A DNA stretch of 64,000 nt. Source: Desulfarculaceae bacterium. GTDB taxonomy: Bacteria > Desulfobacterota > Desulfarculia > Desulfarculales > Desulfarculaceae. The translations under genes were made by a program, and so were the position numbers. Each line of letters opens with the position of its first letter. Positions within the stretch are counted from its first letter, which is position 1. The stretch lies in the NCBI GenBank assembly GCA_020444545.1, contig JAHLKT010000001.1:434001-498000 (forward strand), in the 5' to 3' direction. The notes under the pieces were generated by a model, which worked only from the letters and a program-made list of their open reading frames with translations, was not told where the DNA came from and did no database searches. Shown here one piece after another: positions 14,313 to 25,644 of this stretch.

Positions 14313-14334
14313 CATCGCCGCTTGGCGAACAAAA

Positions 14335-14370
14335 CGAGAGGCCAGCCGCCGGGCTGGCCTCTCGCTATTT
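14335..14370 (+). terminator. Strong terminator between tctA and the convergent peroxiredoxin gene
   Basis: Perfect 13-bp stem CGAGAGGCCAGCC (14335-14347) / GGCTGGCCTCTCG (14352-14364) with loop GCCG, followed by CTATTT. It closes the Tct operon and could also serve the convergent minus-strand gene ending at 14397. Confidence 0.85.
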
Positions 14371-14396: not shown

Positions 14397-14864
14397 CTAT
14401 TTCAACCCGGCCAGGTCGGCCAGCACCTGCTCGGCGTGGCCCTTGGCCTTCACCTTGGGGTAGACCTTCAACAGCTTGCCGTCCGGCCCGGCCACGAAGG
14501 TGCTGCGGATGGGCCCCTGGCTCACCTTGCCGTAGAGCTTTTTTTCGCCCCAGGCGCCCAGGGCCTGGATGAGGCCGGTGTCCGGGTCGGCCAGTAGGGA
14601 ATACTTGAGCCCCAGCTTGTCGCTGAACTTGGCGTGGCTGGCCACCTTGTCGCGGCTCAGGCCCGCCACGGCCCAACCCCTGCGCTTGAAATTCGTGAGT
14701 TTCTCCTGAAACTCTGATGCCTCGGCGGTTCAGCCGCTGGTGTTGTCCTTGGAGTAGACGAACAAGACCAGGCCTCTTTTGCCCACCAGGTCCTTAAAGA
14801 CCTTGTCCGCGCCGCTCTGGTCGGGCAGCTTGAACTTGGGCAGCTTGTCTCCTTGGCTAAGCAT
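14397..14864 (-). CDS. PrxQ/BCP-like peroxiredoxin selenoprotein (Sec45)
   Basis: Thiol/selenol peroxidase of 155 residues. Reading from ATG 14864 (GGGAG 7 bp upstream), the frame gives FVYSKDNTSG, then TGA at codon 45 (14732-14730), then TAEASEFQEKL and a complete PrxQ-like body (AGLSRDKVASHAKF, ADPDTGLIQALGAWGEKKLYG, ST..AGPDGKLL). In ordinary PrxQ/BCP this segment reads DNTPGCTxEACxF, so TGA replaces exactly the peroxidatic Cys. A SECIS-like hairpin sits 15 bases after the TGA. The usual resolving Cys five residues on is Ser (EASEF), and no other Cys is encoded, so it would be a one-Sec enzyme relying on an external thiol. Naive calling truncates it to 14397-14669. Cys45 homologues and Sec peroxiredoxins are known in anaerobes. 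Confidence 0.9.
14697..14732 (-). promoter_or_regulatory. Sec UGA codon and SECIS-like hairpin of the peroxiredoxin gene
   Basis: In mRNA sense, UGA (14732-14730) is followed after 15 bases by GAGTTTC (14714-14708), loop AGGA, and GAAACTC (14703-14697), a perfect 7-bp stem. Distance to UGA and a G-containing apical loop fit bacterial SECIS elements. Confidence 0.83.
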
Positions 14865-14915
14865 ATGGGTTCTCCCGATTTGGTTCGGCGTTTCCTATGA
14901 TTCTAACCCAAAGCG

Positions 14916-14961: not shown

Positions 14962-16032
14962 TTACTTGAGCTCCATGGCCTTTTCCGGGCACATCTCCTG
15001 GCAGCAGAAGCACACGATGCACTTGTCCGGGTCCACCTTGGGCAGCTCGCCGTCAAAGGCCAGGGCCGAGGCGGGGCAGCCCTCGATGCACTGGCCGCAG
15101 CCGGTGCACAGCTCGGGGTCGGCCGAGGGCCGCAGCTGGGTGCGGCTCTCGAGGAACTCCTGGATGCCCGGGGCGCGGGTGATGGACTCGCCGCCCAGGG
15201 GGGGCAGCTTGAAATCGGGCACCGGCTTCAGTTCGCCGATGATCTCTACGGCCTCCTCGGCGTACTCGCCCAGGCCCAGGGCTTGGGCCTTGGCTAAAAA
15301 GCGCATGATCCCGGGGTCCTCCAGGCCCATGAGCCGGCCAATGGTTCCGTCCAGGGCCACTCCGTTGTCCGCGGCCAAAACCAGCCCCACGTCGCGCAGG
15401 TCGGGCGAGGCCGGGCCGTTGCCCTCCATGCCCACCACCCCGTCCACGATGAAGAGGTCCGGCTTGCGCAGGGCGAACACATCCACCAGCACCTCGTTGA
15501 AGCGTCCCGGATCGCCGGCCAGCTTATGCAGGTTGGCCTTCTGGGCCCCGGGCAGGATGCCGAAGCTGTTCTTGATGGCCCCGGAAAGCACGGTGAGGCC
15601 GTGGGTCTTGAACTTGGGCACCGAGATGAAGTAGTCGGCCTCCATGATGGCCCGGCTCACCCCCACGGTGGGCAGATACTCGGGGTTGAAGGGCACCTCC
15701 ACCACCTCGGTCCCGATGTTCTGGTAGTGCCCCAGGGCCGCCTCGCGCAGGCCGGTTTTCTCGAAGGCCATCTCGTTGGCCCCGTAGGTGAACACCCCGG
15801 GGTTGTCGCCCACGATGATCGAGGCCGGCTCCAGCCGCTCCAGGGCCGCCACCACCGCGCGCAGCACCGCCGGGTGGGTGGCGATGCTCTCCTTGGGGTC
15901 GGCCGAGCGCAGCACGTTGGGCTTCACCACAACCTTCTTGCCCTTCACCGGCGGCGCGAAAATCTCAAAAGCCCGGTCCACGGCCGCTTGACAGTGCTCA
16001 TAGCTGGCCGGCTCGATCATCACTCTGTACAT
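14962..16032 (-). CDS. DUF362 domain protein with C-terminal 2x[4Fe-4S] ferredoxin module
   Basis: 356 residues. Residues ~30-285 match the DUF362 family (VVVKPNVL, VGDNPGVFTYG, ADYFISVPKFKTHGLTVLSGAIKNSFGILPG broken across that segment, and IVDGVVGMEGNGP). The C-terminal ~60 residues hold two ferredoxin motifs, CTGCGQCIEGCP and CIVCFCCQEMCP. DUF362 proteins occur widely in anaerobes and have no firmly assigned reaction; a redox or metal-linked role is only suggested by the clusters. ATG 16032 is chosen for its AAGGTG site; the frame is open to 16131 but the extra residues are low complexity. It is a single gene with its own terminator, divergent from the zinc-ribbon/rubredoxin operon. Confidence 0.85.
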   Translation of the reverse strand: MYRVMIEPASYEHCQAAVDRAFEIFAPPVKGKKVVVKPNVLRSADPKESIATHPAVLRAVVAALERLEPASIIVGDNPGVFTYGANEMAFEKTGLREAALGHYQNIGTEVVEVPFNPEYLPTVGVSRAIMEADYFISVPKFKTHGLTVLSGAIKNSFGILPGAQKANLHKLAGDPGRFNEVLVDVFALRKPDLFIVDGVVGMEGNGPASPDLRDVGLVLAADNGVALDGTIGRLMGLEDPGIMRFLAKAQALGLGEYAEEAVEIIGELKPVPDFKLPPLGGESITRAPGIQEFLESRTQLRPSADPELCTGCGQCIEGCPASALAFDGELPKVDPDKCIVCFCCQEMCPEKAMELK

Positions 16033-16149
16033 GGGATTCACCTTCTGGTTGCGGCCGGCGGCCCGGCCCGGCGTGCCTTCTGGGTTGCCTGTTAAGCTTG
16101 CATTATACGACGGTCGACCGCGCTGGCCCAACCGCTGCTTTTAAGCGGC

Positions 16150-19086: not shown

Positions 19087-19276
19087 CCCTCCTTTCCGCC
19101 TGATCGCTTTTCCAGCAAAGCCAACCTTCCCGCGCCACTCCCGGCATGTTCGCAAATTCGGACCGGGCCGTCCGAACCGCCGCCCCACCGCGATGCCCAG
19201 GCCGGTTTCCCCGGCTTAGGGGGCCGGTGGGCGGTTGCCCGGCGTTTCCGGTCCTACCTCAAGGCAAGGAGTGGCA

Positions 19277-22200
19277 ATGACTACTCAGCTCGATAGACGG
19301 CAGCCCGTGGGCGCGGTGATGGTGGTGGGTGGCGGCGTGGCCGCCATCCAGGCCTCGTTGGACCTGGCCGACACCGGCTACCTCGTCTACTTGGTGGAAA
19401 AGTCCCCGGCCATCGGCGGGGTGATGTCCCAGCTGGACAAGACCTTCCCCACCAACGACTGTTCCATGTGCATCCTCTCGCCCAAGCTGGTGGAGTGCGG
19501 GCGGCACCCCAACATCCAGATATTCACCAACACCTCGGTGGAGCAGGTGGACGGCCAGGTGGGGGCCTTCAGCGTCAAGCTCCACCAAAAGGCCCGCTAC
19601 ATCGACCTGAACAAGTGCATCGCCTGCGGGGCCTGCTCGGACAAATGCCCCAAGCGGGTGCCCGACCTGTTCAACTGCGGCCTGAACCAGCGCAAGGCGG
19701 CCCACGTAAAGTATCCCCAGGCCGTGCCCTTGAAGTACTCCATCGACCGCGACAACTGCATCTATTTCCAGAAGGGCAAGTGCAAGGCCTGCCAGCGCTT
19801 CTGTCCGGCCGACGCGGTGGACTTCACCCAGGAGGACCAGGACCTCACCCTGGAGGTGGGCGCGGTGGTGCTCTCGGCCGGGTTCAAGCCCTTTGATCCC
19901 TCCCCCTTCGCGCAATACTCCTACACCCACTTCCCCAACGTGGTCACCGCCCTGGAGTTCGAGCGCATCCTTAGCGCCAGCGGCCCCTGGATGGGCCATC
20001 TGGTGCGCCCGGGCGACGAGACCGAGCCCAAGAAGATCGCCTGGTTGCAGTGCGTGGGCTCCCGCGACATCAACAACTGCGATCACGGTTACTGCTCCAG
20101 CGTGTGCTGCATGTACGCCATCAAGGAGGCGGTGATCGCCATGGAGCACAGCCACGAGGGGCTGGACACGGCGATCTTCTACATGGACATGCGCACCTTC
20201 GGCAAGGACTTCGAGCGCACCTACGAGGGGGCCAAGGACCGGGGCGTGCGCTTCGTGCGCAGCCGCATCCACACCATCAGCGAGCTGCCCAACCACGACC
20301 TGCGCCTGGAGTACGTGGACGAAAGCGGCGAGGCCCATGCCGAGGACTTCGACCTGGTGGTCTTGAGCCAGGGCCTGGAGATGGACGCGGACACCGCGGC
20401 CATGTGCCAGCGCCTGGACATCGGCCTGGGCTCGACCGGCTTCGTGGACAGCAGCTCATTCGCGCCAGTGGCCACCAGCCGCCCGGGCATCTACGTGTGC
20501 GGCGCCCTGGCTGGCCCTAAGGACATCCCCTTGAGCGTCATGGAGGCCTCGGCCGCGGCCTGCGCCGCCTCGGGCGATCTGTCCATGTCGCGCGGCACCC
20601 TGGTGGACCCCCCGGTGGAGGTTCCCCAGCTAAACGTGAGCGGCGACGCCCCCCGGGTGGGGGTGTTTGTCTGTTCCTGCGGCATCAACATCGCGGGCGT
20701 GGTGGACGTCAAGGAAGTGATGGACTACGCGGCCACCTTGCCCAACGTGGTCTATGTGGAGAACAACCTGTTCACATGCTCCCAGGACACCCAGGACAAG
20801 ATGACCGAGGTGATCAAGGAGCAGGGCCTCAACCGCATGGTGGTGGCGGCCTGTAGCCCGCGCACCCACGAGCCCCTTTTCCAGGAGACCCTGCAAGCCG
20901 CCGGCATCAACAAGTACCTGTTCGACATGGCCAACATCCGCAATCAGACCTCCTGGGTGCACGGCGACGATCCGGTCAAGGCCACCGAGCGGGCCAAGGA
21001 CCAGGTGCGCATGGCCGTGGCCAAGGCCAGCCTGCTGGAGCCCCTGAGCGAGGCCAAGCTCTCCATCCTGCCCAGCGCCATGGTCATCGGCGGCGGCCTG
21101 GCCGGCATGAACGCGGCCCTGGAGCTGGCCAGGCAAGGCTACCCCACCCACCTGGTGGAGCGCGACGTGCAGCTGGGCGGCAACGCCCGGATGCTGCGCG
21201 TCACCGCCAAGGGCGACGAGGTTGCCCCCTATCTGGCCGAGCTCAAGGAAAAGGTCGAGGCCGAGCCCAACATCACGGTGCACCTGGGGGCCAACATCGA
21301 GAAAGTGGACGGCTTCCTGGGCAACTTCAACACCACCCTGAGCGGCGGGGAAGAGATCGAGCACGGGGTGGCCATCATCGCCACCGGGGCCAGCGAGTAC
21401 CGCCCCACCGAGTACCTCATGGACCAGCACCCGGCGGTGAAGACCCACCTGGAGCTGGACGCGGCCCTGCTGAACGGCGAGATAGACCCGTCCCAGGTGG
21501 GCTCGGCGGTGTTCATCCAGTGCGTGGGCTCCCGCGAGCCGGAGCGCCCCTACTGCTCCAAGGTGTGCTGCACCCACTCGGTGGAGAGCGCCTTGCTCAT
21601 CAAAGAGCAAAACCCCGAGGCCCAGGTGGCCATCCTCTACCGCGACATGCGCACCTTCGGCGACCGCGAGCTTCTCTACAAAAAGGCCCGCGCCGCCGGG
21701 GTGCTGTTCATCCGCTACGACCCGGAGAACAAGCCCGAGGTCACCGCCGACGGCGACAAGCTGGTGGTGGCGGTGGACGACCCCATCCTGGGCCGCCGCA
21801 TCGCCCTGGATGCGGAGCTGTTGGTCCTGGCCAGCGCGGTGGTCAGCCACAACGACGAGCCCCTGGCCCAGATGTTCAAGATCCCCCTGGACCAGGACGG
21901 CTGGTTCCTGGAGGCCCACGTGAAGCTCCGGCCCGTGGACTTCGCCACCGACGGCGTGTTCATGGCCGGCATCTGCCACTACCCCAAGCCCATCGAGGAG
22001 GCGGTGGCCCAGGCCCAGGCCGCGGTGGCCCGCGCGGTGACCGTGCTCTCCAAGGGCGAGATGTTCCTGCCCGGCACCGTGGCGGTGATCGACCAAAACA
22101 AGTGCGTGGGCTGCGGGGTGTGCTGGACGGTGTGCCCCTACAAGGCCATCACCGAGGACGAGAACGGCCTGGCCGTGGTCAACGAGGCCCTGTGCAAGGG

Positions 22201-22303
22201 CTGCGGCACCTGCGTGGCCTCCTGCCGCTCGGGCGCGCCCAACCTGCGCGGCTTCTCCAATCAGGACGTGCTGGCCCAGATAAGCACCATGCTGCTGGGC
22301 TGA
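19277..22303 (+). CDS. hdrA: HdrA-like subunit with two flavin modules and C-terminal ferredoxin
   Basis: 1008-residue flavin/Fe-S electron-transfer protein. Module 1 (about 1-430): FAD motif VMVVGGGVAAIQASLDLA, MCILSPKLVECG, CIACGACSDKCP and a second cluster ending CKACQRFCP, then GYCSSVCCMYA. Module 2 (about 455-925): HdrA N-terminus VGVFVCSCGINIAG, FAD motif AMVIGGGLAGMNAA, and PYCSKVCCTHS. C-terminus: two [4Fe-4S] motifs CVGCGVCWTVCP and CKGCGTCVASCR. In methanogens HdrA bifurcates electrons; in bacteria HdrA pairs with Flx/MvhD proteins, as here. The HdrA Cys that is Sec in some relatives is Cys here. ATG 19277 has AAGGAG 6 bp upstream. The two-module form and lack of adjacent hdrBC are noteworthy. 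Confidence 0.93.
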   Translation: MTTQLDRRQPVGAVMVVGGGVAAIQASLDLADTGYLVYLVEKSPAIGGVMSQLDKTFPTNDCSMCILSPKLVECGRHPNIQIFTNTSVEQVDGQVGAFSVKLHQKARYIDLNKCIACGACSDKCPKRVPDLFNCGLNQRKAAHVKYPQAVPLKYSIDRDNCIYFQKGKCKACQRFCPADAVDFTQEDQDLTLEVGAVVLSAGFKPFDPSPFAQYSYTHFPNVVTALEFERILSASGPWMGHLVRPGDETEPKKIAWLQCVGSRDINNCDHGYCSSVCCMYAIKEAVIAMEHSHEGLDTAIFYMDMRTFGKDFERTYEGAKDRGVRFVRSRIHTISELPNHDLRLEYVDESGEAHAEDFDLVVLSQGLEMDADTAAMCQRLDIGLGSTGFVDSSSFAPVATSRPGIYVCGALAGPKDIPLSVMEASAAACAASGDLSMSRGTLVDPPVEVPQLNVSGDAPRVGVFVCSCGINIAGVVDVKEVMDYAATLPNVVYVENNLFTCSQDTQDKMTEVIKEQGLNRMVVAACSPRTHEPLFQETLQAAGINKYLFDMANIRNQTSWVHGDDPVKATERAKDQVRMAVAKASLLEPLSEAKLSILPSAMVIGGGLAGMNAALELARQGYPTHLVERDVQLGGNARMLRVTAKGDEVAPYLAELKEKVEAEPNITVHLGANIEKVDGFLGNFNTTLSGGEEIEHGVAIIATGASEYRPTEYLMDQHPAVKTHLELDAALLNGEIDPSQVGSAVFIQCVGSREPERPYCSKVCCTHSVESALLIKEQNPEAQVAILYRDMRTFGDRELLYKKARAAGVLFIRYDPENKPEVTADGDKLVVAVDDPILGRRIALDAELLVLASAVVSHNDEPLAQMFKIPLDQDGWFLEAHVKLRPVDFATDGVFMAGICHYPKPIEEAVAQAQAAVARAVTVLSKGEMFLPGTVAVIDQNKCVGCGVCWTVCPYKAITEDENGLAVVNEALCKGCGTCVASCRSGAPNLRGFSNQDVLAQISTMLLG

Positions 22304-22319
22304 CGGGAGAGACAAGCAA

Positions 22320-22760
22320 ATGAGCCCTAATGAAAGCTTCGAGCCGCGCATCGCGGCCTTCTTCTGCAACTGGTGCACCTACGGCGGGGCCGACCTCGCC
22401 GGGGTGAGCCGCTTGCAATATCCCCCCAACATCCGCGCCATCCGCATCCCCTGCACCGGCCGCCTCAGCCCCACCTTTGTGTTGCAGGCCTTCCGCCAAG
22501 GGGCCGACGGGGTGTGGATCAGCGGCTGCCATCCCGGCGACTGTCACTACATCGAAGGCAACCTCTACGCCCGCCGCCGCTTCACCATCCTCAAGAACCT
22601 CCTGGAGTACGTGGGCCTGGAGCCCGGCCGCCTGCACTTCTCCTGGATATCCTCGGCCGAGGCCACCAAGTTCCAGCAGACGGTGATCGAGGTCACCGAG
22701 GCGGTCAAGGCCCTGGGGCCCTGCCAGTTCCTGCGCAAAGACATAGGCATGGTGGCCTGA
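22320..22760 (+). CDS. MvhD/FlxD-like [2Fe-2S] electron-transfer subunit
   Basis: 146 residues of the MvhD (F420-non-reducing hydrogenase delta) family: N-terminal FFCNWCTYGGADLAG, IPCTGRLS, and GCHPGDCHYIEGN, which carry the conserved cysteines of the cluster. In MvhADG-Hdr and Flx-Hdr complexes this protein links the electron donor to HdrA. The gene starts 16 bp after hdrA and its stop overlaps the next start by one base (TGATG), so it is translationally coupled within the operon. Unlike Desulfovibrio FlxD there is no fused ferredoxin domain. Confidence 0.9.
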   Translation: MSPNESFEPRIAAFFCNWCTYGGADLAGVSRLQYPPNIRAIRIPCTGRLSPTFVLQAFRQGADGVWISGCHPGDCHYIEGNLYARRRFTILKNLLEYVGLEPGRLHFSWISSAEATKFQQTVIEVTEAVKALGPCQFLRKDIGMVA

Positions 22761-23731
22761 TGGATAACCAAGAAATCGCCCAAGCCATCCGCGAGACCGC
22801 CGCGCGCCTGCTCAGCGAAGGCGTGGTGGATTGCGTGCTCGGTTACCAGGCCGGCACGGTCCCCATGCGCGAGCGGCCCTATTTCGCCTACACCCCGGAA
22901 GAGGCCTCGAACCTCACCTGGACCGGCTTCTGCTGTAACAACCTGGCCAATTTCCTCATCCGCCGCCCGCAGGGCGAGACGGGCAAGGTGGCCGTGGTGG
23001 CCCAGGGCTGCATCAGCCGCAGCATCGTGGGGCTCATCAAGGAACACCAGATCACCCGCGAGCAGGTCTACGTCATCGGCGTGGCCAGCCCGGGGATGCT
23101 CGACCGCGACAAGGTGCAGGAGGCGGTGGGGGCCGAGAAGATCATCACCGCCGTGGCCGAGGAAGGCGACGAGCTGGTGGTGGAAGGCCCCGGCTACAGC
23201 GAGCGCATCGCCCGCAAGAAGCTGATGCGCGAAAACTGCTACACCTGCGTGCAGCGCAACCCGGTTATCTCCGACGAGCTCATCGGCTCCGAGAGCGAGC
23301 CCACCCACGGCGGCAACATCGACAAGGTGTCCGCGCCCTGGGAAAAGCTGGACCCGGCCCAGCGCCTGGCCGCCTTCGCCGAGAACTACCAGGACTGCAT
23401 CCGCTGCTATGCCTGCCGCGACGCCTGTCCCCTGTGCTACTGCCACGTCTGCTTCGTGGACGAGTCCAAGCCCCAGTGGTGCGGCAAGACCCAGGACGAG
23501 TCCGACGTGCTCTCCTACCATCTGCTCAGGGCCTTCCACTGCGCCGGGCGCTGCACCGACTGCGGGGCCTGCGAGAGCGCCTGTCCCCAGGGCATCAAGG
23601 TGCGCCGCCTGACCAGCAAGATCGAGCACGACGTGCGCGAGTTCTACGGCTATGCCCCGGGCCTGGACGAAAAATCCACGCCCCCGTTGAGCGTCCACAA
23701 GCCGGACGACCCCCAGGGGTTCATCAAGTAA
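22760..23731 (+). CDS. FrhB-like Fe-S protein, FlxC-type electron-transfer subunit
   Basis: 323 residues. The N-terminal ~190 residues resemble the F420-hydrogenase/dehydrogenase beta family (FCCNNLANFLIRR, VAVVAQGCISRSIVGLI). The C-terminal ~130 are an Fe-S domain with CIRCYACRDACPLCYCHVC and CTDCGACESACPQG, i.e. two [4Fe-4S] sites plus extra cysteines that could ligate another cluster. Position and partners match the FlxC slot of FlxABCD-HdrABC, a set known as an NADH dehydrogenase/heterodisulfide-reductase complex in anaerobes. The ATG overlaps the mvhD-like stop. Whether it binds a flavin is not decidable by eye. Confidence 0.82.
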   Translation: MDNQEIAQAIRETAARLLSEGVVDCVLGYQAGTVPMRERPYFAYTPEEASNLTWTGFCCNNLANFLIRRPQGETGKVAVVAQGCISRSIVGLIKEHQITREQVYVIGVASPGMLDRDKVQEAVGAEKIITAVAEEGDELVVEGPGYSERIARKKLMRENCYTCVQRNPVISDELIGSESEPTHGGNIDKVSAPWEKLDPAQRLAAFAENYQDCIRCYACRDACPLCYCHVCFVDESKPQWCGKTQDESDVLSYHLLRAFHCAGRCTDCGACESACPQGIKVRRLTSKIEHDVREFYGYAPGLDEKSTPPLSVHKPDDPQGFIK

Positions 23732-23741
23732 AGGAGCAGCC

Positions 23742-24770
23742 ATGTCCGACAAGATTCTGAGCAAGGACCAGGCCGCCTCCTTCTTGGGCGAGCTGGCCGA
23801 AACACGCGATCTCTTCGCCCCGGCCCTGGAGGGCGGCAAGGTGGTCTGGGCCCCCTTGGCCCCGGATGGCGAGGTTCTCTGGGACTTCGCCAACACCACC
23901 ATGAGCCCCAAGGATTTCTTCTTCCCCCAGACCGAGTGCATGATGCGCTTTGCCAACCATCAGGACGGCGAGGACGGCATGGTCATGCACGCCGAACCCG
24001 AACTGGCCAAGGAGCGGGCCCTGGTCAACATGCGCCCCTGCGACGCCAAGGCTTTTGGGGTGCTGGATTTGATCTTCTGCCAGGACGAGATGACCGACGA
24101 CCCCTACTGGCGCAACAAGCGCGAGAAGTCCTTGATCATCGCCCTGGCCTGCAACAACCCCTGCCCCACCTGCTTCTGCACCTCCATGAACTGCGGCCCC
24201 CACTCCGAGACCGGGGCCGACGTGCTCCTGGTGGACCTGGGCGACCAGCTCCTGGCCCGGGGGGTCAGCGAAAAGGGCGAGACGGCTATTGCCTCCCTGC
24301 CCGAGGCCACCGAAGCCGACCAGGCCGCCGCCGCCCAAGCCAAGAAGGAAGCCGAGGCGGCCATCACCACCACGGTGGAGATGGACCAAATCAACCAGCG
24401 CGAGGTGATGGAGCTCTACGAGGCAAAGCATTGGGACCGGGTGCACGAGAGCTGCCTCAACTGCGGCACCTGCACCTTCTGCTGTCCCACCTGCCACTGC
24501 TTCGACATCCAGGACGAGACCCTGGGCGAGGCCGGGCGCCGGGTGCGCAACTGGGACTACTGCATGAGCTACCTCTTCACCCTGCACGGCACCGGCCACA
24601 ACCCGCGCGGCAGCAAGAAGGACCGGGTGCGCCAGAGGTTCATGCACAAGTTCAAATACATCCCGGTCAAGCGCGGCGGCGAGATCGGCTGCGTGGGCTG
24701 CGGGCGCTGCGTGCAGCTCTGCCCGGTGAACATCGACGTGCGCGAGGTGGTGCGCGACATGAACGCCTGA
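23742..24770 (+). CDS. 4Fe-4S dicluster electron-transfer subunit, FlxB-like
   Basis: 342 residues. The N-terminal ~210 residues match the family shared by anaerobic sulfite reductase subunit A and hydrogenase HydB-type proteins (NMRPCDAKAFGVLD, ALACNNPCPTCFCTSMNCGP). Residues ~150-215 include an Ala/Glu-rich helical linker. The C-terminal part has two ferredoxin motifs, CLNCGTCTFCCPTCHC and CVGCGRCVQLCP. It would wire the NAD(P)H-flavin subunit to HdrA. AAGGAG precedes the ATG, and the gene is 10 bp after the FlxC-like gene. Confidence 0.85.
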   Translation: MSDKILSKDQAASFLGELAETRDLFAPALEGGKVVWAPLAPDGEVLWDFANTTMSPKDFFFPQTECMMRFANHQDGEDGMVMHAEPELAKERALVNMRPCDAKAFGVLDLIFCQDEMTDDPYWRNKREKSLIIALACNNPCPTCFCTSMNCGPHSETGADVLLVDLGDQLLARGVSEKGETAIASLPEATEADQAAAAQAKKEAEAAITTTVEMDQINQREVMELYEAKHWDRVHESCLNCGTCTFCCPTCHCFDIQDETLGEAGRRVRNWDYCMSYLFTLHGTGHNPRGSKKDRVRQRFMHKFKYIPVKRGGEIGCVGCGRCVQLCPVNIDVREVVRDMNA

Positions 24771-24804
24771 GGCGCGCGCCCCAGGCCAGAAAGGCTTATC
24801 AGCC

Positions 24805-25644
24805 ATGGACAATCCCTACCGGCCCTATCCGGTGAAAATATCCAAGACCCTGGTGGAGACCGAGGACAAGCAGCTAAAGAGCTTTTGGCTGGATTTCCTC
24901 GACCCCGCCGACGCCCAGGCCTTTGATTACACCCCCGGCCAGTTCGCCGAGCTGAGCGTGTCGGGCTACGGCGAGATCCCCATCGGCATCGCCTCCAGCC
25001 CCACCGAGGGCGACACCCTCCTGTTCACGGTGAACAAGGTGGGCGTGGTGAGCAACCGGCTGCACAACATGAACGAAGGCGACGTCATGGGGGTGCGCGG
25101 CCCCCTGGGCAACAGCTACCCGCTCAAGGAGATGGAGGGCAAGAACGTGGTCATCGTGGCCGGCGGCTTCGCGGTGACCACCCTGCGCTCCACGGTCACC
25201 TGGATGCTGCACCCCGACCACCGCGACAAGTACGGCGACATCACCTTCATCTACGGGGCGCGCACCCCGGGCCTGCTGCTCTACGAGGACCAATGGCGGG
25301 AGTGGCAGAAGCGTGACGACATCAACTGCCACGTGACCATCGACCGGGAGGTGGAGGGCTGGGACGGCCTGGTGGGCTTCGTGCCCACGGTGTGCGAGGA
25401 GGTGGCCCCTCAGCCGGACAACGCGGTGGCCTTGATCTGCGGCCCGCCGGTGATGATCCGCTTCACCCAGCCGGTGTTCGACAAGCTGGGCTGGCAGGCG
25501 GAGCAGATCGTGATGAGCCTGGAGAACCGCATGAAGTGCGGCATCGGCATCTGCGGGCGCTGCAACGTGGGGCCGGAGTATGTGTGCAAGGACGGCCCGG
25601 TGTTCACCAAGGCTCAGTTGGACAACCTGCCCGCCGAGTACTAG
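24805..25644 (+). CDS. FAD/NAD(P)-binding reductase subunit, FlxA-like
   Basis: 279 residues of the ferredoxin-NADP reductase / dihydroorotate dehydrogenase electron-transfer family. FAD domain: YTPGQFAELSV and IGIASSPTEG. NAD(P) domain: VVIVAGGFAVTTLRS, FIYGARTPGLLLYEDQWREW, ALICGPPVMIRF. C-terminus: MKCGIGICGRCNVG plus YVCKDGPVF, a [2Fe-2S] site. It is the entry or exit point for NAD(P)H in the hdrA-flx cluster and is its last gene, followed 22 bp later by a strong terminator. Confidence 0.9.
   Translation: MDNPYRPYPVKISKTLVETEDKQLKSFWLDFLDPADAQAFDYTPGQFAELSVSGYGEIPIGIASSPTEGDTLLFTVNKVGVVSNRLHNMNEGDVMGVRGPLGNSYPLKEMEGKNVVIVAGGFAVTTLRSTVTWMLHPDHRDKYGDITFIYGARTPGLLLYEDQWREWQKRDDINCHVTIDREVEGWDGLVGFVPTVCEEVAPQPDNAVALICGPPVMIRFTQPVFDKLGWQAEQIVMSLENRMKCGIGICGRCNVGPEYVCKDGPVFTKAQLDNLPAEY

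Follow-up and report, generated by a model that had tools for sequence, protein, structure and literature searches.

The window, the whole stretch of 64,000 nucleotides that was analysed, carries on its minus strand a gene for a predicted peroxiredoxin of the PrxQ type, in which a TGA codon takes the place of the peroxidatic residue. The gene and the features belonging to it are:

14872..14876, minus strand: ribosome-binding site GGGAG, with a similar site at the same place in two relatives (L009 and L010)
14397..14864, minus strand: coding sequence of the Sec-PrxQ, 155 codons from ATG to TAG, with TGA45 read through
14751..14753, minus strand: codon 38 (TCC, Ser), which replaces the Pro of the PxxxTxxC motif
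14730..14732, minus strand: TGA codon 45, predicted selenocysteine and peroxidatic residue, Cys in Cys-type and TGA in Sec-type relatives
14715..14717, minus strand: codon 50 (TCA, Ser), the alpha-2 resolving-Cys position (CP+5)
14697..14714, minus strand: SECIS-like hairpin of 7 bp with the apical loop AGGA, starting 15 nt after the TGA
14622..14624, minus strand: codon 81 (AGC, Ser), the alpha-3 resolving-Cys position, aligned with Cys84 of Xanthomonas PrxQ
14331..14363, minus strand: possible terminator 3' of the gene, a 12-bp inverted repeat followed by GTTTT, seen by eye

An earlier note on this DNA had described one frame from ATG 14864 to the stop at 14397, interrupted only by the TGA of codon 45 and encoding no Cys, and sequence and translation bear this out. 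The frame opens with ATG at 14864-14862 and closes with TAG at 14399-14397, its sole internal stop is the TGA at 14732-14730, and translation with TGA as U yields 155 residues with zero Cys. The coding sequence is based on the Pfam domain AhpC-TSA (PF00578, 104 bits against a cut-off of 26) and on dN/dS values below 1 on either side of the TGA. Between congeners dN/dS is ~0.15-0.3 for codons 46-150, with dN 0.07-0.16 versus dS 0.3-0.8 3' of the TGA, and this purifying selection means that the part downstream of the TGA is translated. The promoter scan detected nothing of the sigma-70 type, and the terminator scan, which demands 5 T in 8, did not list the repeat at 14331..14363.

Directly upstream on the same strand lies a gene for a DUF362 protein with ferredoxin-type 4Fe-4S domains (14962-16131, minus), which adjoins the Sec-PrxQ gene only in the closest relative besides the source (L009/L108). 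The other neighbour is a TctA transporter. Further away, an electron-transfer cluster on the plus strand (19235-25644) encodes an HdrA-like flavoprotein and Fe-S and flavin reductase subunits, together with a short MvhD-like protein (22320-22760) that contains CNWC and is a Cys form.

Decoding of the TGA codon

The source genome (4.38 Mb in 11 contigs, 100% complete) contains the genes on which selenocysteine insertion depends, which the earlier note had proposed to look for: a tRNA-Sec (selC) with the anticodon TCA, selA with 610 bits, selB with 398 bits and selD with 379 bits. The selD gene (L098, G000:C1:335187-336113) has an in-frame TGA of its own (AAGUAAKIG), and therefore its product, selenophosphate synthetase, is itself a predicted selenoprotein. 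A comparison of homologues, which could have revealed a stop without any Cys/Sec column, instead revealed such a column exactly at codon 45, in agreement with the peroxidatic PrxQ/BCP position that had been assigned to the TGA. In the genome collection 7/80 relatives have TGA there, and the others have TGC or TGT except for one TTT. The alternation of TGA and Cys at this one column is found in the two sampled phyla and in one Nitrospinaceae genome. A Bacteroidales PrxQ (L035, DEIW01000113.1) has TTT (Phe) at the peroxidatic codon and retains Cys50; it is possibly an inactive copy or a sequencing error.

The TGA form is present in eight genomes of the class, all eight with selA, as are the three distant TGA genomes (Clostridiales, Nitrospinaceae, Desulfobacterales), so that selA accompanies the TGA in 11/11 TGA-type genomes tested. 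Several Cys-form genomes of the class are without selA (e.g., G022-G024, G026, G027, G029-G031, G036), and no full-scoring selA was found in 4/5 of the Cys-form genomes from the search for distant relatives.

The hairpin that had been noticed 15 bases 3' of the TGA lies at 14714-14697 and is conserved alongside the TGA. It reads GAGTTTC-AGGA-GAAACTC, a stem-loop just 3' of the UGA with a small apical loop containing G, as is expected of a bacterial SECIS element. Nowhere else in the window does this motif recur with ≤1 mismatch, and shuffled sequences give none. In the class, GAGUUUC-AGGA-GA(A/G)ACUC (one G-U variant) is common to all eight Sec genes, and in most Cys homologues the hairpin is altered and unrecognisable. 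To form the stem, the Sec genes of the class use codons of low frequency in the window (TTT 13%, AAA 10%, AGA 0.7%), and all seven pairs are formed by 2% of the synonymous versions drawn from the codon usage of the window. A search of the window against Rfam at gathering score yielded a single tRNA and no SECIS match. Taken alone, the hairpin of this gene is not significant (synonymous test p 0.12, shuffle z -0.27). Because the shuffle value of the single hairpin is not significant, Sec and Cys forms were compared with the help of synonymous resampling: across all PrxQ rows the mean z for fold stability after codon 45 is -1.09 in Sec and -0.23 in Cys genes (Mann-Whitney p 5e-6, which is indicative only, as the rows are related). 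One Cys-PrxQ gene (L114, G057:C140:5065-5520) has TGC followed by a weakened SECIS-like hairpin with two G-U pairs. Other species of its genus are of the Sec type, and it is probably a case of a recent change from Sec to Cys.

Since the decoding genes, the shared TGA column, the presence of selA in the TGA genomes and the conserved hairpin coincide, insertion of selenocysteine at TGA45 is very likely. The checks proposed in the earlier note and carried out here all speak for its reading. That the TGA is instead a nonsense mutation or an assembly error, leaving a Cys-PrxQ pseudogene or translation only from GTG 14669, is highly improbable: the standard list of open reading frames offers in this frame only the 90-aa GTG frame 14397-14669, but that product would be without the peroxidatic residue, the same codon is TGA in eight Desulfarculia genomes and in other phyla from many separate assemblies, and codons 1-44 as well as 46-150 evolve under purifying selection; with the Sec machinery and the hairpin also present, little room is left for it.

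Protein family, active site and reductant

By homology and modelled fold we assign the protein to the PrxQ lineage, although it deviates from the textbook motif at two points. The best NCBI models are PrxQ models, yet the scores stay under the equivalog cut-offs (PRK09437, 108.8 of 140 bits; NF053650, 150.2 of 260 bits). The AlphaFold model (pLDDT 95) has solved PrxQ/BCP structures as best matches (Z 23-27), and the top structural matches are PrxQ/BCP without exception. The protein shares the fold (VIA Z ~24, ~35% identity) and the active-site Thr and Arg with PrxQ of Xanthomonas campestris (5iiz, 3gkm) and with Burkholderia ambifaria 5enu; however, the Xanthomonas enzyme has its resolving Cys84 in alpha-3, where Ser81 stands here. 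A kinship with PrxU of Eubacterium acidaminophilum, which the earlier note had named for its Sec peroxiredoxin, does not hold beyond the fact that both are Sec peroxiredoxins of anaerobes: PrxU belongs to another subfamily, which is AhpC-like and has ~200 aa, and its model NF040737 gives this gene only 16.3 bits against a cut-off of 270. The true PrxU of the genome is a different Sec gene outside the window (L256/L177, G000:C2:562663-563268, minus; NF040737 395 bits), which contains FVUATE and has Thr in place of the C-terminal resolving Cys of AhpC.

Bacterial Sec peroxiredoxins with TxxU (COG1225/Bcp) are a catalogued selenoprotein family, as described in the searched passages of PMC1088965, PMC1794560, PMC9312934 and PMC13188914, and those same passages mention neither the absence of any Cys nor the Desulfarculaceae clade. 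As far as these passages go, the present gene resembles the family in its peroxidatic Sec, its TxxU (T42-S-G-U45), its bacterial SECIS and its Sec-decoding genome, and differs from the family's PxxxTxxU by a Ser for the Pro. It is hence a predicted Sec peroxidase of a known kind, in a Cys-free variant with Ser at both resolving sites.

In the active site Thr42, Arg120 and Gly44, which precedes the peroxidatic residue, are retained. Here the earlier reading was correct in placing Sec at the peroxidatic position and missed that the Pro of PxxxTxxC has become Ser. No full-length Sec gene of the family has this Pro, the others carrying Ser, Thr or Ala there, whereas 178/190 Cys-type rows have it. 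Such a change at the active site could speak for a protein that does contain Sec and whose main role is in redox sensing, as a chaperone or in DNA binding rather than as a peroxidase, and some BCPs are reported to act as chaperones or to protect DNA (PMC6590489, PMC8945050). However, the peroxidatic Sec is in place together with Thr42 and Arg120, and since some Cys relatives (L111, L119, L126, L127, L131) have lost the Pro too, its loss is tolerated; we therefore regard a main role other than that of a peroxidase as unlikely.

With high confidence we take the protein for a peroxiredoxin of the PrxQ lineage whose peroxidatic residue is a Sec inserted by recoding of UGA and which depends for its reduction on a thiol from outside, most likely thioredoxin. 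Computation shows the reading frame, the conserved Sec/Cys column, the genes for decoding, the hairpin, the fold and the lack of any Cys, whereas we infer that Sec is actually inserted, that the protein acts as a peroxidase and which thiol reduces it, in the following steps. UGA45 would be recoded by SelB and tRNA-Sec together with the hairpin just 3' of the codon. The selenolate of Sec45, held by Thr42 and Arg120, would attack the hydroperoxide and become a selenenic acid. As the protein has no resolving Cys, the selenenic acid would have to be reduced by an external thiol, for which thioredoxin is the most likely candidate: its first Cys would form a mixed selenenylsulfide, which its second Cys would release. 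Sulfate reducers are found among the relatives, and sulfide is abundant there, which counts for a variant of this cycle in which the same peroxidase is recycled by glutaredoxin or a low-molecular-weight thiol (GSH, hydrosulfide, persulfide) and not by thioredoxin. The one-Cys BCP of Burkholderia cenocepacia, which like the present protein has a single catalytic residue, no resolving Cys and the need for an external thiol, although its catalytic residue is Cys and not Sec, is recycled directly by thioredoxin and better by GSH/glutaredoxin (PMC6590489, PMC8945050; Clarke 2010 as cited in the latter). Recycling by glutaredoxin or a small thiol is thus conceivable, if somewhat doubtful, and we keep thioredoxin as the preferred reductant. 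A conserved gene-order link to a reductant gene was sought and not found, synteny being present only in L009/L108.

Selenocysteine and the resolving Cys

The usual resolving Cys, five residues after the peroxidatic one, had been read as Ser, which is confirmed at residue 50; with Ser81 at the alpha-3 site, neither of the places at which a 2-Cys PrxQ has its resolving Cys is occupied by Cys. PrxQs without a resolving Cys are already known, and the majority of BCPs lack it according to PMC8945050. Among the distinct PrxQs of the Desulfobacterota, Cys50 occurs in 0/26 Sec forms versus 62/116 Cys forms, and 17/26 of the Sec forms have no other Cys at all. In an independent sample, taken from the phylum to which the Clostridiales relative belongs, the counts were 0/19 Sec versus 34/45 Cys forms. 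For the pooled count L327 and L328 were excluded as a different peroxiredoxin type, which reduces the second Sec sample from 19 to 17, and the alpha-2 resolving Cys is then present in 0/43 Sec-PrxQs versus 96/161 Cys-PrxQs of the two phyla. The two excluded sequences (from G511 and G550) are TGA-containing WTPVU peroxiredoxins with a Cys seven residues after the Sec.

The combined tree of 225 rows has 24 changes of state between Sec and Cys, eight of them forced by well-supported branches; it is a quick build with many weak branches, and the simulations depend on it. With this tree and the Cys tips as given, the simulation leads one to expect Cys50 in 16.7 Sec tips; it is present in none, and the lowest count over 20,000 runs was 3, so that the exclusion holds up against the simulation. 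When the simulation was conditioned on the observed number of resolving Cys, zero was reached in 0/937 runs, whereas the unconditioned simulation gave a P of 0.18, most of its data sets having far too few resolving Cys. The test on independent pairs with the starred branches has low power, with ≤3 informative pairs in one run and a mean of 2.2 in another, and the simulations on the tree supplement it.

Mutual exclusion of Sec and the alpha-2 resolving Cys in PrxQ can thus be put forward as a rule that is well supported but not proven. The missing resolving Cys appears not to be peculiar to this gene, in correction of the earlier note, but the rule for Sec-PrxQs. No statement on the resolving Cys of Sec-PrxQs was found in the literature searched, in which the coverage of subscription journals is thin. 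A wider rule, that all Sec peroxiredoxins are without a resolving Cys, was rejected: the PrxU type across the phylum is mostly Sec and mostly without a resolving Cys, and four of its members (L299, L301, L303, L304) have both Sec and the C-terminal resolving Cys.

In glutathione peroxidases, Sec forms are typically without a resolving Cys and many Cys forms have one. This is the same association as in PrxQ, in another subfamily of the thioredoxin fold.

Overoxidation is resisted by selenium (PMC8533274), so that a resolving Cys would lose one of its advantages. We consider it rather probable that Sec was gained only in PrxQ lineages that were one-Cys already, or that became so by losing the resolving Cys at the same time, because with selenium, as in Sec glutathione peroxidases, that Cys is superfluous or does harm; the present gene would be the extreme case, with no Cys and a relaxed active-site Pro.

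Meaning for the PrxQ family

Compared to the earlier note, what is added are the Ser residues at both resolving sites, the Ser in place of the PxxxTxxC Pro and the exclusion between Sec and resolving Cys across two phyla, and the last of these is the part of most interest. Ordinary annotation would cut such genes at the active site. An enzyme with one Sec and no Cys is a clean system for the question of what selenium buys, because it can turn over only if the selenenic acid is reduced from outside, and a single residue reports overoxidation. With the pattern of 0/43 versus 96/161, the question of why selenium is used becomes testable on natural Sec/Cys pairs within one bacterial family, some of them within a genus.
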